64,000 bases of DNA, from assembly GCA_029254025.1 (NCBI GenBank), contig JAQWYK010000018.1, positions 1 through 64,000 on the forward strand, in the 5' to 3' direction. Positions 29,190 through 36,732 of this stretch are shown here, piece after piece. How positions within the stretch are numbered: the first letter of the stretch is position 1; each line of letters opens with the position of its first letter. Made by a program: the position numbers and the translations under genes. Origin of the DNA: Crocinitomicaceae bacterium (GTDB taxonomy: Bacteria > Bacteroidota > Bacteroidia > Flavobacteriales_D > Crocinitomicaceae). A model generated the notes under the pieces. The model was not told the origin of the DNA, searched no databases, and was given only the letters and a program-made list of their open reading frames with translations.

Positions 29190-30467
29190 ATGAACAATTA
29201 TAAAAACGACCTTTCTTTTGCACGCGAATGTGACTCAAAGGACCCACTAGCAAAGTACCGAAGTGAATTTTACTTCCCAACATTTCATGAAAAGGATGTA
29301 ATCTACTTTACGGGAAACTCTTTAGGCCTGCAACCGAAGCGAACAAAATCATTCATTGAACAGGAATTGAACGATTGGGCAAAATGGGGGGTTGAAGGAC
29401 ATTTTGAAGCGCAAAACCCATGGTTTTCATACCATGAATTATTGACCAGTAAAGCAGCAAAAATAGTTGGTGCATTGGATAAAGAAGTTGTCATTACTCA
29501 TTCCTTAACCACCAACCTGCACTTGTTAATGGTTTCATTTTATCGACCAGAAGGAAAACGATTTAAAATACTATGTGAAGGAAAAGCATTTCCGTCCGAT
29601 CAATATGCGCTTGAATCTCAGGTGAAATTTCATGGTTATGAACCGAAGGATGCTATCCTGGAAATATTCCCAAGAAAAGGTGAACATCTGATTCGCGAAG
29701 AAGACATCCTTGATACGTTAGCTCGGCATGGTGAGGAAATCGCTTTAGTAATGATTGGGGGAGTGAACTATTATACGGGACAACTTTTCGACATGAAATC
29801 CATTACCGATGCTGGACATAAAGCTGGTGCGGTGGTAGGTTTCGATTTAGCTCATGCTGCAGGAAACGTGGAACTTTACCTACACAATTGGGGCGTTGAT
29901 TTTGCGGCATGGTGTTCATACAAATATTTGAATTCTAGTCCAGGAGGCGTTTCCGGTTTGTTTGTCCACGAACGTCATGCAAACAAACCCAATTTATCGC
30001 GTTTTGCTGGTTGGTGGGGTCATGACAAGGATCTTCGTTTCAAAATGGAACCCGGATTTCGACCGATGCAAGGTGCAGAAGGTTGGCAATTGAGCAATGC
30101 CCCAATACTCGGAATGGCAGCGCATTTGGCTTCTTTAACGATTTTTGACGAAGTTGGAATGAAGGCGATTTCTGCAAAAAGAAATGACCTAACAGCTTAC
30201 CTCGAATTTATTATACACGCTATTTCTTCAAGTAGCGAGAAGGTCAATTTTGAAATCATTACACCAACTGACAAAACAAAACGTGGCGCGCAACTCTCCA
30301 TCTTGGCCCACGGCCAAGGAAAAGATTTATTTGACGCTCTTTCGGGGTCTGGAGTTGTTGCAGACTGGAGAGAACCTAATGTAATTCGCATTGCTCCAGC
30401 TCCACTCTACAATTCATATGAAGATGTATATCATTTTGGACAACGATTAAAAGCTGCTATTTGCTAG
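29190..30467 (+). CDS. kynU: Kynureninase
   Basis: A 425-residue PLP-dependent enzyme that cleaves kynurenine or 3-hydroxykynurenine to anthranilate or 3-hydroxyanthranilate. Family segments: [12 protein letters not shown] near residue 40, the FDLAHAAGN Asp of the PLP site (about 218-225) and the Schiff-base Lys245 in [13 protein letters not shown]. It starts the kyn series, with 1 bp to the next small gene. With the monooxygenase downstream it would supply 3-hydroxyanthranilate for NAD synthesis from tryptophan. I see no kynA or nbaC-type gene in the window. Confidence 0.96.
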
Positions 30468-30844: not shown

Positions 30845-32188
30845 ATGGGTAACATGAAAGTAGCAGTCATTGGCGCAGGATTAGTCGGTAGTTTACATGC
30901 CGTTCTTCTTGCTAAAAAAGGTTTTCAAGTAGATGTTTTTGAGCGCAGACCAGATTTACGAAAAGCAGATGTTATAGGTGGAAGATCTATCAATCTTGCA
31001 CTTTCAAATAGAGGCTTCAAAGCGCTTGAAATGGCTGGTATTGCGGATGAAATTCGAAAAATGTGTATTCCTATGTACGGACGTAAAATGCACGATATTG
31101 AAGGCAACCTTACCTATCAACCGTATGGAAAGGAAAATGAAGCTATTTATTCTGTTTCACGAGGTGGTTTGAATCAAACACTCATGAATTTAGCTGATAA
31201 TTATCCAAATATCACCTATCGCTTTAATCATAAATGCGAAGATTTAGACTTGGATACTAATACCATATCATTCACAGATACTGCCTCGAAGGAAACTGTC
31301 AGCTGCACATATGACCATATTTTTGGTACAGACGGGGCATTCTCGGCAGTGCGCAATCGGATGATGAAAACCCCCATGTTTAACTATTCTCAGGACTATT
31401 TATCACATGGCTACAAAGAACTTGTAATTCCTCCAAACGCGGATGGAACACATCGGATAGATAAAAACTGTTTACACATCTGGCCAAGAGGTGAGTTTAT
31501 GCTTATCGCATTACCGAATCTCGATGGTAGTTTCACAGTGACGTTGTTCTTCCCAATGAAAGGAGATACATCTTTTGAAAGTATTAATACCGGCGAGGAC
31601 GTGATGAAATTTTTCAACGCTACCTTTCCCGATGCTGTGGAGGTAATGCCTACACTCAAAACAGATTACTTCGAAAATCCAACTTCTACTTTGGTCACTG
31701 TTCGATGTAGCCCTTGGAACTATGAAGACAAAGTAATGCTGATGGGTGACGCAGCACACGCTATTGTTCCATTCTACGGCCAAGGTATGAATTCTGGGTT
31801 TGAAGATTGCTCGGTATTTTCAGAAATGTTCGACGCCAATAATGGTGACGCACTAAAATTATTTGAAGACTATTCTAACCAGCGTGTACCAGACGGAAAT
31901 TCGATTGCCGATTTAGCCTTGTACAATTATATCGAAATGCGGGATTTAGCGGGAGATACCGATTTCTTGTTGCGTAAGAAAATTGAACGAAAATTCAGTG
32001 ATTTGTATCCTTCCAAATGGTTACCGTTATATTCGCAAGTTACATTTAGTCATATTCGTTATTCAGATGCAATTGCAAACGGTGATCGTCAGCGTAAAAT
32101 AATGGATGAAGTGATGGCTATGGAAAACATTCATACTCAATGGGAGGATAATTCGGTAATGGAAAAAATATTATCTTTAGTAGAATGA
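30845..32188 (+). CDS. kmo: Kynurenine 3-monooxygenase
   Basis: A 447-residue FAD-dependent hydroxylase turning kynurenine into 3-hydroxykynurenine. It carries the FAD motif VAVIGAGLVGS, the DGAFSAVR segment and the flavin ribityl motif MGDAAHAIVPFYGQGMN. Unlike the mitochondrial enzyme no clear C-terminal membrane anchor is present. The start may be the ATG at 30845 or the one at 30854 (MKVAVIG). A possible -7 box TATTTTTG lies at 30787-30794, so it could have its own promoter in addition to read-through from kynU. Its stop overlaps the next start (ATGA). Confidence 0.95.
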   Translation: MGNMKVAVIGAGLVGSLHAVLLAKKGFQVDVFERRPDLRKADVIGGRSINLALSNRGFKALEMAGIADEIRKMCIPMYGRKMHDIEGNLTYQPYGKENEAIYSVSRGGLNQTLMNLADNYPNITYRFNHKCEDLDLDTNTISFTDTASKETVSCTYDHIFGTDGAFSAVRNRMMKTPMFNYSQDYLSHGYKELVIPPNADGTHRIDKNCLHIWPRGEFMLIALPNLDGSFTVTLFFPMKGDTSFESINTGEDVMKFFNATFPDAVEVMPTLKTDYFENPTSTLVTVRCSPWNYEDKVMLMGDAAHAIVPFYGQGMNSGFEDCSVFSEMFDANNGDALKLFEDYSNQRVPDGNSIADLALYNYIEMRDLAGDTDFLLRKKIERKFSDLYPSKWLPLYSQVTFSHIRYSDAIANGDRQRKIMDEVMAMENIHTQWEDNSVMEKILSLVE

Positions 32189-33081
32189 AGAAGCACCTAG
32201 TTGTTTTATTGGCGTTGACTTGTGCTGTTGGTTCCAGTGCAGTCGCACAAAGTGGATCATACCGAAACAAAACTAAAAAGAAACAGTTCTATGGAAACCA
32301 ACGATTACAACAGCCTTTATACAAATGGGTAACTGGACCTCATCATCGACATGGTATTCAATTATCTTTCGGACCTACTTATACGTTTACACGCATGAAT
32401 CCTGTCAAAGGCGAAATGCGGATCAATGGGGACAGTCTCTTTCGCTATAGCCATGAGGCAAAAAGTCGTATTGGAATTTTCGTAGAACTGGGCATGGTGC
32501 ACATAACCAAGCGTCCTCGAAAATTGATTCAATACTATGACTGGGGAATTGGGTACAAGCACATTGGAGGACGAGAATTTTTTGAATCTGGACTTTACGA
32601 CGATAGAGATACACTCATTAGCAACGTTTCTGGAGATGGTGAATTCTATAATGGTTACCTCTACGGTCGTTTTACAGCACACAATGTTTTCCAAATCAAT
32701 CCTTACACATTTTTAGATAACGGACTTGGTATAAACTTGGATTACACCATGGTCGGCATGAACACCAGCTATTATGGCACTTATTTACCACAAACCCAAA
32801 AGTTCCAAGGGAATTTGATGGGACAATTACACTACGATTTCGGATTTGGATTTAAACCAAAGGAAGGGTTCTTCATCATTCCAGGAGTACAATTACCCCT
32901 TTTAACTGCGTACGAATGGAATGGTGGAACACCTAGTATTCATTGGTTTTCGAGTAAATATTATCCCACGCTTTTCAAAGTCAAGTTCGTATGGTTGTTT
33001 AAAAAAGACCCCAATCGCTGTCCTCCAGTGGAAACGAATGAAGACGATCGTAAGCGTGCGAATGAATTCATGAATCGATGA
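32185..33081 (+). CDS. Predicted outer-membrane/secreted protein of unknown function
   Basis: A 298-residue protein with a signal peptide (about 1-22, ending AVAQ). The mature part is rich in aromatic amphipathic strands (HGIQLSFGPTYTF, RKLIQYYDWGIGYKHIG, LMGQLHYDFGFGFKP, FFIIPGVQLPLL), which fits a small beta-barrel or a barrel-associated protein. No family recognised. It starts inside the kmo stop (ATGA) and ends 4 bp into the next gene, so it belongs to the same transcript. Confidence 0.7.
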   Translation: MKKHLVVLLALTCAVGSSAVAQSGSYRNKTKKKQFYGNQRLQQPLYKWVTGPHHRHGIQLSFGPTYTFTRMNPVKGEMRINGDSLFRYSHEAKSRIGIFVELGMVHITKRPRKLIQYYDWGIGYKHIGGREFFESGLYDDRDTLISNVSGDGEFYNGYLYGRFTAHNVFQINPYTFLDNGLGINLDYTMVGMNTSYYGTYLPQTQKFQGNLMGQLHYDFGFGFKPKEGFFIIPGVQLPLLTAYEWNGGTPSIHWFSSKYYPTLFKVKFVWLFKKDPNRCPPVETNEDDRKRANEFMNR

Positions 33082-33911
33082 CACTTTCTTACCTAACTAG
33101 ATTAACTGCTAATTCTTGTATCGCGGTAATGTTCTTTTGGGTATCTTCATTGACATACGGACAAGGTAAAGTAGATGGATTTTACAAAGGAAAAGGAACC
33201 ATTGAAGTAGGAATAGGAGGTGGACTCCAATTCGACAAAGTTTATTTTGCCGGTACGACCAAAATAAATTTAACTCGAAACATTCGAACCGCTGCGCTCT
33301 TCATTGGAACAGGAATAACCGATAAATTTGACCTTTACCTGAATATACCTGTGGTATCCATTGGAGATGTCAAATCCGTGCAGGACGGTAGCTTATTTCT
33401 AAAGTATCGGCTTGCTCAAGCCAAACTCAAGGGAGGGGACTTAACCTTTAACCTGGCATCTGGTTTCTCAGGCAACTTAACCAATTATTCCACGAGTGGG
33501 GTTAATGCTATTGGTCAACAAGCTAAAATCGTTGATATTCGACCAGTAATTCATTACCAAATTTATGGATGGTTTGCCACACTACAATATGCCTACAATT
33601 ATAAATTTGATCCTGTTACGTCGGCATACTCGGGAAGCATTAAAGTAGGTTACGCCGCGGCTAAATACTACGTTGATCTTTGGTATGAAAACCAATATAC
33701 TCCGGGAGGCTTCGACTACTTGGGTACACCAGCACCACCTTCATTTCGCGAGTTAGGAGTGAACTATGATCGCATTGGAGGAACGATTTATGTTCCAATC
33801 GGAAAGCGATTTGGTATTTATTCAAATGTTGGTTATACACTTAGTGGAAGAAATATTGGACAAGGGCTTTACGCTGGTGCGGGATGTGTTTTAAAAAATT
33901 TATGCTATTAA
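33078..33911 (+). CDS. Predicted outer-membrane beta-barrel protein
   Basis: A 277-residue exported protein with a signal peptide (about 1-28) and alternating strands with Gly turns (IEVGIGGGLQFDKV, LYLNIPVVSIGDV, TFNLASGFSGN, GIYSNVGYTLSGRN). It resembles transporter-like or meta-pathway phenol-degradation type barrels in style, but I cannot name a family with certainty. It overlaps the previous gene by 4 bp and its last 12 bp overlap the 3' end of the opposing lycopene cyclase/dioxygenase gene. Confidence 0.65.
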   Translation: MTLSYLTRLTANSCIAVMFFWVSSLTYGQGKVDGFYKGKGTIEVGIGGGLQFDKVYFAGTTKINLTRNIRTAALFIGTGITDKFDLYLNIPVVSIGDVKSVQDGSLFLKYRLAQAKLKGGDLTFNLASGFSGNLTNYSTSGVNAIGQQAKIVDIRPVIHYQIYGWFATLQYAYNYKFDPVTSAYSGSIKVGYAAAKYYVDLWYENQYTPGGFDYLGTPAPPSFRELGVNYDRIGGTIYVPIGKRFGIYSNVGYTLSGRNIGQGLYAGAGCVLKNLCY

Positions 33912-35933
33912 ATTAGTTTTTTTGTAATAGAAGTGCATTATCACACAGTGTGGAAAACTTATACTTGATATGAACACAAATATTAAAGACCAAAAATTGC
34001 TCATTTTGAGAATTTCTCCAAAATTTAACATAAATAATGCAAATAGTAAGAACGCACCAATATTATATAGAAGTGCCTTCTGAAAAAGCTGAGATGATGA
34101 TAAGGATAAACCCTTCTTAAGATGGGACCAAGCATTGAAACTATGCTGAAATATAAAATACAGCCAAAATGCGTGAAAAAGAGGAAGGAAAAGACCAAAA
34201 ATGAGTAAAGTAAGTAATCCTAATAAATTATTTCTAGCATGATTCATCTGGGTTAATACTAGGAAAAAGATAGAAAATAGAGAAAGTGGTATTTGATAAA
34301 AAATACTTTGGGCAAAAGTGAAACCAGTAAGATCAAAAATTAAATGAACTGATTCTTCCGTATGAGTAGATAGGATAAATACCAGAATGGATATTCCTGT
34401 GAAAAATGAGTATATCTTACCTAAAACGGACTTCGTTTCACCTCCTGCTTGAATCCATTCCGACTCACCAAAATGAAAAAATGAATACCCAAGAAAAAAT
34501 ATCAAAGCCAGCGTGGGGTTAAGCCACCAAACTAACAAGTTCAGTATCATTAACAGAATATATTTCGTGAGAAACAAGTACATTCGAGTATTACTATTCT
34601 TTGAAATTAAATAGTCTATAGCACCATGAGGAATACCAATAATAAAAAATCCTGTAATTAGAGAAGCATAACTATAATACGATTCTAAATAGGGAAAGTA
34701 CGTATCAGTTAACATATATAACAACACGAATATAGTGACTACAACAAACCTCCAAGAAATATAGTTCACAAGAACCCTTAATGAAGCATTCAAAAAAGGA
34801 ATTAATGGTAATTTTGAAAATATTTTAATCTCATCAAGTAGACTGGTTTTTTCATCTAGGAAGTTAAAAATAGTAATAATTGGAATCGAGCTAAATAACT
34901 TACTAAATATTCGTTTTCCAATAATAGGCCTAAAACATAAAATGAACAATAATAACTGATCATATAGACGAAATCTCTTTTTACTAGGTAACCCTATCTC
35001 ATTAAATCTATTTAAATTATTATTTTGAATTTTGTGGGTTACTAATTCTGCAAACTGATGCATATTCTTAAAACCATAACCCGTACTGGGTTTAATTAAA
35101 TTAGCACTAGCCCCTGTCCGCAATATTTTTGAAGAATTATGATGCGGAACCCTTGCATTAGTCATCGGTATTGAACCCGTCTCTTTATGAAGCACTCTGT
35201 AAGAACCATATTTTTCAGAAATGAAACGATCAAGTTGTTCTTCTGCATACTTTTTATCCAGTTTTTCGACACCAAACCGAGTAAATTCAATTAATGCAGA
35301 TTTTTTAGAAAAAGGAATAAGGTAAACAAATTGAGTAGATCCATTTTGCTCAACGCTAAAGTTCATCATTTCAAATACTTCCACATCAAAAGAATTTGAA
35401 TTACATTCAATATGAAAACCTAAAAAACTTTGATTCAGGAAAATTTCGTTCTTGCCCGTTAAGGTGATTTTCTGAGGACGACTATCAAAAATGTAATTAG
35501 CAAGATACGAGTTGGATGTTGTATTAATTGAATTAAGATAACTATTGGGAGTTATGTCCTCTACATAATCGCACACTAATTGAATATTACTTTTTTTGCT
35601 TATTTCTTCCTTCACAAAATCATAAAGATCTATGCTTCTGATATAATGATAAGGTTGACTATCTATACTTTTTATTGAATTATCACTCAATTTTATTTTA
35701 TCGAACCGGTAAGAAATAATTGAATCGAAATCTGAGACTATTTTTTCGTTATCATTTGCCCAAAAACAATATGTTTTATCATTTTCTGTTTTAGCGTCGC
35801 CCTCACAAATTAGGATTTTCTTGTTCGACGTTAATCCACTTTGAATCAATGAAAGTAGAATTAAACTGTTACTAGCTCCAAGTCCAATAAAAGCAAAATC
35901 ATGAACAACATCAGCCTTACTCAATTGATTCAT
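33900..35933 (-). CDS. Fused lycopene beta-cyclase (CrtY) and beta-carotene 15,15'-dioxygenase (Brp/Blh)
   Basis: One uninterrupted 677-residue frame with two complete enzymes. Residues 1 to about 383 are a CrtY-type flavoprotein lycopene cyclase: FIGLGASNS (15-23), FWAN (57-60), FDSRP (149-153), FLGFHIEC (170-177), IEFTRFG (215-221) and RTGASANLIKPSTGYGF (272-288), ending in the usual SLLDEIKIFSKLPLIPFL. Residues about 395-677 are a multi-helix Brp/Blh dioxygenase with the family His residues in GIPHGAIDY (His436), FFHFGESEW (His487), FQHSFNAWSH (His597, His604) and PHCVIMH (His662, His667). The protein should cyclise lycopene and cleave beta-carotene to retinal at the membrane, for the rhodopsin encoded just upstream. 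Elsewhere these are normally separate genes. Confidence 0.93.
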   Translation of the reverse strand: MNQLSKADVVHDFAFIGLGASNSLILLSLIQSGLTSNKKILICEGDAKTENDKTYCFWANDNEKIVSDFDSIISYRFDKIKLSDNSIKSIDSQPYHYIRSIDLYDFVKEEISKKSNIQLVCDYVEDITPNSYLNSINTTSNSYLANYIFDSRPQKITLTGKNEIFLNQSFLGFHIECNSNSFDVEVFEMMNFSVEQNGSTQFVYLIPFSKKSALIEFTRFGVEKLDKKYAEEQLDRFISEKYGSYRVLHKETGSIPMTNARVPHHNSSKILRTGASANLIKPSTGYGFKNMHQFAELVTHKIQNNNLNRFNEIGLPSKKRFRLYDQLLLFILCFRPIIGKRIFSKLFSSIPIITIFNFLDEKTSLLDEIKIFSKLPLIPFLNASLRVLVNYISWRFVVVTIFVLLYMLTDTYFPYLESYYSYASLITGFFIIGIPHGAIDYLISKNSNTRMYLFLTKYILLMILNLLVWWLNPTLALIFFLGYSFFHFGESEWIQAGGETKSVLGKIYSFFTGISILVFILSTHTEESVHLIFDLTGFTFAQSIFYQIPLSLFSIFFLVLTQMNHARNNLLGLLTLLIFGLFLPLFHAFWLYFIFQHSFNAWSHLKKGLSLSSSQLFQKALLYNIGAFLLFALFMLNFGEILKMSNFWSLIFVFISSISFPHCVIMHFYYKKTNLIA

Positions 35934-35955: not shown

Positions 35956-35983
35956 AGAGGTGCATTTAAAAAAATGCACCTCT
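35956..35983 (-). terminator. Terminator/attenuator between the rhodopsin and crtY-blh genes
   Basis: A perfect 12-bp stem (AGAGGTGCATTT/AAATGCACCTCT) with an AAAA/TTTT loop, followed on the minus strand by about six T. It lies 20 bp after the rhodopsin stop and 22 bp before the crtY-blh start, so it should end most rhodopsin transcripts there. Confidence 0.85.
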
Positions 35984-36003: not shown

Positions 36004-36732
36004 TTAGTCTTCGCTGCCTCTGCTTAAAGCATAAATAACTAAACCAAAACCAATTTTGTTAATCGCATCGGCAATGTTGTAAACGATATCCATTGCATGA
36101 GCCGCAGCTTCCGGATTTTCAACAAGCTGAACACCGAACAATCCACCCGGAGTACCTAATATGTATCCCAACGGATAAATAGCCCATCCAACAAGAACAA
36201 ACCACGCCAACACTCTCGTGGCTTTCGCAACCTGAGGACCGGCAGTTTGTGCCAATTTTGCAACTTCTCCAAACCAGATTAAGTAAACTATATAGAAGTA
36301 AGCAGCTCCAGAGATCACACCCCACAATACACTTCCGTCTCTGTCAAGAACTTCACCAGCATACCCTGTTAAGAGCATTACTAAAGAGGCAAATATTAGT
36401 TTCCATAGAAGACCAATCTTGGCACCAGCTTTCTTGGTGATTAAATAAAACTCAACACACATTAACGGAACTGTCAAAATCCAATCAACATAACGGAAAA
36501 AAGTTGGAGATTCTCCAGTTTCTAAATTGTAACTACGCATGTAGTAATAATGCACAGCTGCAATAAAGGTAATTAAACCAGATACTAGGAGAGATGTTCT
36601 CCATTTCTTAGAGGTATTGTTCAACTCAAAAAAGAAGAACACAGAAGCGGCCATCATAGCCATCGTTCCAATAAAGAACGTGAAAGCAACATAATTGTCG
36701 CTAGCGATAGTAGACATTGTTTCTAATAACAT
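36004..36732 (-). CDS. Proteorhodopsin, light-driven proton pump (green-type)
   Basis: A 242-residue seven-helix microbial rhodopsin. Aligned on RYVDWILTVPL, it has His61, the proton acceptor Asp83, Thr87, the proton donor Glu94 and the retinal-binding Lys226 in INKIGFGLVIY; these match His75, Asp97, Thr101, Glu108 and Lys231 of green proteorhodopsin. This DTE set marks an outward proton pump. The spectral-tuning position (GPR 105) is Met91, as in green-absorbing flavobacterial pumps. Gly138 stands where GPR has Phe152 and xanthorhodopsin Gly156, so a carotenoid antenna could bind. The first Met is 5 codons before another (MLLETM), and the true start may be either. The retinal-making gene follows after 70 bp. 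Confidence 0.97.
   Translation of the reverse strand: MLLETMSTIASDNYVAFTFFIGTMAMMAASVFFFFELNNTSKKWRTSLLVSGLITFIAAVHYYYMRSYNLETGESPTFFRYVDWILTVPLMCVEFYLITKKAGAKIGLLWKLIFASLVMLLTGYAGEVLDRDGSVLWGVISGAAYFYIVYLIWFGEVAKLAQTAGPQVAKATRVLAWFVLVGWAIYPLGYILGTPGGLFGVQLVENPEAAAHAMDIVYNIADAINKIGFGLVIYALSRGSED

Follow-up and report, generated by a model that had tools for sequence, protein, structure and literature searches.

Does the reading frame that follows the rhodopsin gene in the window (the whole 64,000-nucleotide stretch of Crocinitomicaceae DNA analysed here) encode one protein that takes lycopene to retinal, and is such a protein reserved for supplying the rhodopsin? Judging from sequence comparison, we consider it likely, with a probability of roughly 80%, that the gene encodes a bifunctional, membrane-anchored and retinal-dedicated enzyme that arose from one fusion event, with other carotenoids being made through a separate cyclase.

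The preliminary description had claimed a 677-residue frame carrying a CrtY-type cyclase followed by a full Blh dioxygenase with its His set, and had proposed a domain search of the protein. The open reading frame, which starts at an ATG and runs without an internal stop, and the Pfam and NCBIfam matches bear out this claim (Table 1). The CrtY half aligned with positions 1-378 of the 380 in the Lycopene_cycl profile (PF05834; E = 1e-37), and the Blh half matched BCD (PF15461; 95.2 bits, E = 7e-27), both above the Pfam cut-offs (23.4 and 28 bits, respectively); the Blh half also scored above the cut-off of the NCBIfam Blh model TIGR03753 (118.8 bits; cut-off 95.25). The CrtY half failed the NCBI CrtY equivalog TIGR01789 (56.8 against a cut-off of 215.2), and stand-alone Bacteroidota CrtY proteins lie likewise far under that cut-off (47.4 and 44.0). 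Because these stand-alone proteins fail the model too, the CrtY assignment is based on PF05834 and makes no use of TIGR01789. Both Pfam families were matched in all 70 relatives scanned, and a PDB sequence search with the fusion protein returned no relative. At its 3' end the gene overlaps by 12 bases the 3' end of a convergent, membrane-protein-like gene (33078-33911, + strand); adjoining kynureninase-like and kynurenine 3-monooxygenase-like genes, as read from the sequence, occupy 29190-30467 and 30845-32188 (+ strand) of the window.

Table 1. Features of the fusion locus and of the second cyclase operon; positions refer to the window unless a locus is named.
Feature	Position	Strand	Basis or remark
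Fusion CDS, CrtY-type lycopene cyclase + Brp/Blh beta-carotene 15,15'-dioxygenase	33900..35933	-	677 aa
Lycopene cyclase half, residues 12-383	34785..35900	-	PF05834, 130.6 bits
Junction, residues 384-393	34755..34784	-	AF2 secondary structure
Brp/Blh dioxygenase half, residues 430-668, all-helical membrane domain	33930..34646	-	PF15461, TIGR03753
E216, Glu of E-x-T motif, candidate catalytic acid	35286..35288	-	invariant
H436 (PHGAxD), candidate metal ligand	34626..34628	-	invariant
H487 (HFG), candidate metal ligand	34473..34475	-	invariant
H597 (QHS), candidate metal ligand	34143..34145	-	invariant
H662 (PH near C-terminus), candidate metal ligand	33948..33950	-	invariant
Microbial rhodopsin, retinal-binding partner	36004..36732	-	PF01036, 150.1 bits
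Terminator-like hairpin, 12-pair stem + T run	35956..35983	-	between rhodopsin and fusion
cruF-crtZ-crtYcd operon	L191 5326-7140		contig C22 of the same genome

An AlphaFold2 model built on 70 fusions is confidently two-domain (mean pLDDT 92.2, pTM 0.84). In this model the last helix of the CrtY half (residues 377-391) and the first helix of the Blh half (394-412) are separated by a two-residue break, which leaves almost no room for a linker. The fold of the CrtY half is that of a geranylgeranyl-reductase-like FAD protein (348 residues aligned with 3oz2, Z = 24.2, rmsd 3.7), and the dinucleotide-binding glycines of this half, G17 and G19, are conserved. Across 100 fusion and 45 stand-alone CrtY sequences, E216, T218, E251 and D325 were invariant and the two glycines nearly so; K281 was also invariant across the 100 fusions. 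We take E216 to be the Glu of the FLEET motif, and we presume, from general knowledge of both families, that it is the catalytic acid and that the conserved histidines of the Blh half are metal ligands. These four histidines, together with D440, were present in 99 of 99 fusions and in 18 of 18 stand-alone Blh proteins. The CrtY half is like stand-alone CrtY (PF05834) in family, in being full length and in its invariant candidate catalytic positions; it differs in its C-terminal Blh, in a clade signature (K53, Q201, R219 and G221) and in that it would serve the rhodopsin locus instead of the carotenoid cluster. The Blh half, for its part, has the same four histidines as stand-alone Brp/Blh (PF15461, TIGR03753), but it lacks a free N-terminus and shows extra conserved residues in the fusion clade (H524, W602 and H604), the last of these, seven residues past H597, being nearly invariant in fusions and missing from most stand-alone Blh.

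The rhodopsin gene, which carries a D-T-E pump motif in RYVDWILTVPLMCVEF as read from the sequence, is found 70 bases upstream of the fusion on the same strand. Of the 69 informative named loci, 54 have a rhodopsin gene next to the fusion and in the same orientation, and 15 of the 80 named loci have full flanks yet no rhodopsin near the fusion. Rhodopsin occurred in 65 of the 71 fusion genomes of the family versus 20 of its 169 other genomes (p = 2e-33, Fisher, a value that overstates independence, the family genomes being related); some of the 6/71 fusion genomes without any rhodopsin are incomplete. The loci and genomes that lack rhodopsin count against the proposed role. The neighbouring gene, the loci and the genome counts all support the rhodopsin linkage, and hence the role in retinal supply, that had been proposed for this gene. 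The two genes can be described as one operon only with a qualifier, because a terminator-like hairpin stands between them, ending 22 nt ahead of the ATG of the fusion. Folding of the 51 different spacers between a rhodopsin and a fusion gene gave a mean z of -4.9 against mononucleotide shuffles, with z <= -2 and a T run in 43; similar hairpins are present in some operons with separate genes. This pattern of sequence suggests that the hairpin is likely an attenuator. Rhodopsin would then likely be made in excess and the fusion enzyme from read-through, with internal promoters also possible.

How the cell makes its other carotenoids bears directly on the dedication of the fused enzyme. In the genome from which the window comes, crtB, crtI and idi form a cluster, and contig C22 carries a CrtYcd cyclase (PF18916, TIGR03462), non-homologous to CrtY, directly beside crtZ and a cruF-like gene; searches of this genome for another CrtY or Blh, and for an RPE65-type oxygenase, found none. 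A second cyclase was located in the carotenoid cluster of every fusion genome inspected (37/37). All 30 inspected fusion genomes of the family, picked because crtZ had been located in them, have cruF-crtZ-crtYcd or crtZ-crtYcd (crtZ was found in 207 of 240 family genomes), and in seven fusion genomes of two other families the second cyclase is a stand-alone CrtY. It is mainly because the fused cyclase is extra to a xanthophyll pathway that has its own cyclase that we call it retinal-dedicated. With cruF next to it, the CrtYcd branch may be monocyclic. A PF04116 search of this genome had returned only proteins of 260-300 aa, which suggested a lack of crtZ and hence retinal as the sole cyclic product; this idea was dropped once a CrtZ query had located crtZ on contig C22. 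The idi-crtB-crtI cluster (L052, 5184-11919, on contig C36) is accompanied by a photolyase, an ECF sigma factor and a LitR/CarH-like MerR regulator with a B12-binding domain, and for this reason the carotenoid genes may be light-regulated.

In the mechanism that we propose, the N-terminal flavoprotein half would convert lycopene to beta-carotene, the C-terminal helical half would cleave beta-carotene at the 15,15' bond to give retinal, and the retinal would load the rhodopsin encoded just upstream, with expression of the fusion attenuated relative to that of rhodopsin and the carotenoids for the rest of the cell made with the separate cyclase of the carotenoid cluster. We infer both enzyme activities as well as the dedication to retinal. 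Whether the protein also channels its substrate is a more tentative matter: lycopene might enter the flavin half and leave only as retinal, creating two insulated pools. It is a possibility, on balance a doubtful one, that such pools, retinal through CrtY-Blh and xanthophyll through CrtYcd-CrtZ, exist in a large fraction of aquatic Bacteroidota.

The history of the fusion can be followed in its CrtY half. In a quick tree that compared 38 fusions, after thinning, with 24 other CrtY sequences, the CrtY halves of the fusions made up one side of a branch (SH-aLRT 99), and a larger FastTree recovered the same split between fusions and other CrtY with a support of 0.75. The CrtY sequences nearest to the fusions belong to two loci, L137 and L184, in each of which crtY is followed by blh, the pair at L137 standing behind a rhodopsin gene; at both, the stop codon of crtY runs into the start codon of blh in the string TGATG, an arrangement that usually signals translational coupling. 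The CrtY sequences of L137 and L184 have the motif TQF...E-x-TRFG in common with the fusions, whereas most CrtY proteins of carotenoid clusters have TRF...E-x-TLFS. Separate-gene loci of this type (the rhodopsin-crtY-blh operons at L137 and L170 and the crtY-blh pair at L184) have the same functions in the same order as the fusion locus, but encode two polypeptides in overlapping genes where the fusion encodes one. Because the fusions form one CrtY branch whose nearest relatives are crtY/blh pairs with the TGATG overlap, the comparison points to the fusion having most likely arisen once, from a coupled rhodopsin-crtY-blh operon, in which loss of the crtY stop between overlapping genes would have left a single crtY-blh frame.

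Trees of the Blh halves broadly agree with a single origin, except for the solitary Blh of one genus (g53; L177-L183), which share the motif QHSxxxWxHL and, in the free tree, sit among the fusions on a long branch. A single fusion clade for the Blh halves was not rejected (AU p = 0.71), and the solitary genes could possibly reflect fission or loss of the CrtY half. These solitary genes (for example L185, 5637-6512) are flanked on both sides by a large surface-protein-like gene and have neither rhodopsin nor CrtY in their vicinity. Another locus, L151, was considered as a second, independent fusion and rejected, as it contains two genes with a TGA between them: at 2300-2520, crtY and blh are in the same frame and are parted only by this TGA and a single codon, so that one more step would make an independent fusion of them.

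The ancestral-type overlap can also be read differently, with the halves as ordinary enzymes that are merely tethered and undedicated, beta-carotene being released and shared with CrtZ, and the fusion being a neutral outcome of the overlap. A pair that already overlaps by TGATG requires only a small change for fusion, and the position of the solitary g53 Blh within the fusion clade on free trees looks as if the halves can part. We nevertheless find this reading somewhat unlikely, given that the fusion has been kept, with both active-site sets intact, in four or more families of the order as well as in other Bacteroidota, and that every inspected genome possesses a separate cyclase for the xanthophyll branch, so that sharing is unneeded. 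It is more improbable still that the CrtY half is inactive and acts as a membrane-side scaffold or carotenoid-binding domain, with CrtYcd making all the beta-carotene and only Blh being active. The second cyclase would make a loss of activity tolerable, and clade-specific residues (R219, G221 and Q201) occur beside the conserved Glu in fusions, but this R/G/Q signature is already present in the unfused sister CrtY, and a domain that had lost its activity should decay, whereas E216, E251, K281 and D325 show no variation among 100 fusions and the FAD-binding glycines hardly any; the possibly monocyclic CrtYcd branch, suggested by its cruF neighbour, also speaks against this explanation. Finally, adjacent crtY-blh pairs do exist in Bacteroidota, but the chance that annotation, or an assembly in which a sequencing error joined two such genes, created the frame is negligible, because about 100 independent single-frame homologues, with 31-53% identity, occur in many genomes from unrelated assemblies.

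The preferred reading, a fused and retinal-dedicated enzyme, concerns a gene that is far from confined to this genome. Relatives with a full-length single frame were found in many genomes. The count of genomes with this architecture, which had been suggested at the outset, gave 63 of the 240 genomes of the family with the full single-frame fusion, 8 more having pieces or a broken copy, and 89 of the 399 genomes of the order, in four families, when counted by hand. A whole-genome search of relatives yielded full-length single-frame homologues at 36-38% identity in several genera, and a phylum-wide draw of 395 genomes revealed fusions outside the class as well, in three genomes of family f34. 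In a public scan of about 85,000 species genomes, from which the best 80 loci were kept, both halves were present in all 80 and nearly all were in one frame; at one of them (L089) a frameshift near the end interrupts the fusion. These 80 loci come from metagenome-assembled genomes (MAGs) of aquatic Bacteroidota, with Flavobacteriales, Chitinophagaceae, Sediminibacterium, Ferruginibacter, Lewinellaceae, Cytophagaceae and Crocinitomicaceae among the titles, and the few titles that read otherwise (Streptomyces, Parcubacteria) are probably wrong names. Searches of viral contigs and of phages found no relative of the fusion, and a plasmid search returned relatives of the CrtY half only. The rarity implied by the preliminary description is not supported, since a large share of aquatic Bacteroidota normally carry the two enzymes as this fusion.

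We found no description of a CrtY-Blh fusion in the open-access literature, which was the part searched. Bacterial crtY and blh have been analysed as separate genes (PMC5877348). The closest parallel is a four-domain CrtI-CrtB-CrtYcd-Blh protein of Thecamonas trahens, proposed as a direct route to retinal (PMC10016063), which likewise joins a cyclase and Blh in one polypeptide; it differs from the fusion in being eukaryotic, in using the unrelated CrtYcd cyclase, in including two further enzymes and in its independent origin. CrtYcd fusion-type cyclases of Algoriphagus and Sulfolobus (cited in PMC2889829, in which no mention of a CrtY-Blh fusion was found) belong to the same reaction class, and the second cyclase found in this genome is of that kind; CrtYcd, however, is a small membrane protein, non-homologous to CrtY and unlinked to Blh here.

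Both halves of the protein belong to known families and the fusion is widespread rather than unique; what this analysis adds is the probable origin from one event, the presence of a second cyclase and a question of channelling that can be tested. Retinal autonomy can be misjudged in genome counts that look for crtY and blh as two genes, and the fusion enzyme would offer a ready-made part for retinal production as well as a means of testing carotenoid channelling with one protein. Many rhodopsin-bearing Bacteroidota must split lycopene between retinal and xanthophylls, and a fused, rhodopsin-linked cyclase-dioxygenase combined with an unrelated cyclase for xanthophylls would be a simple natural design to separate the two branches.
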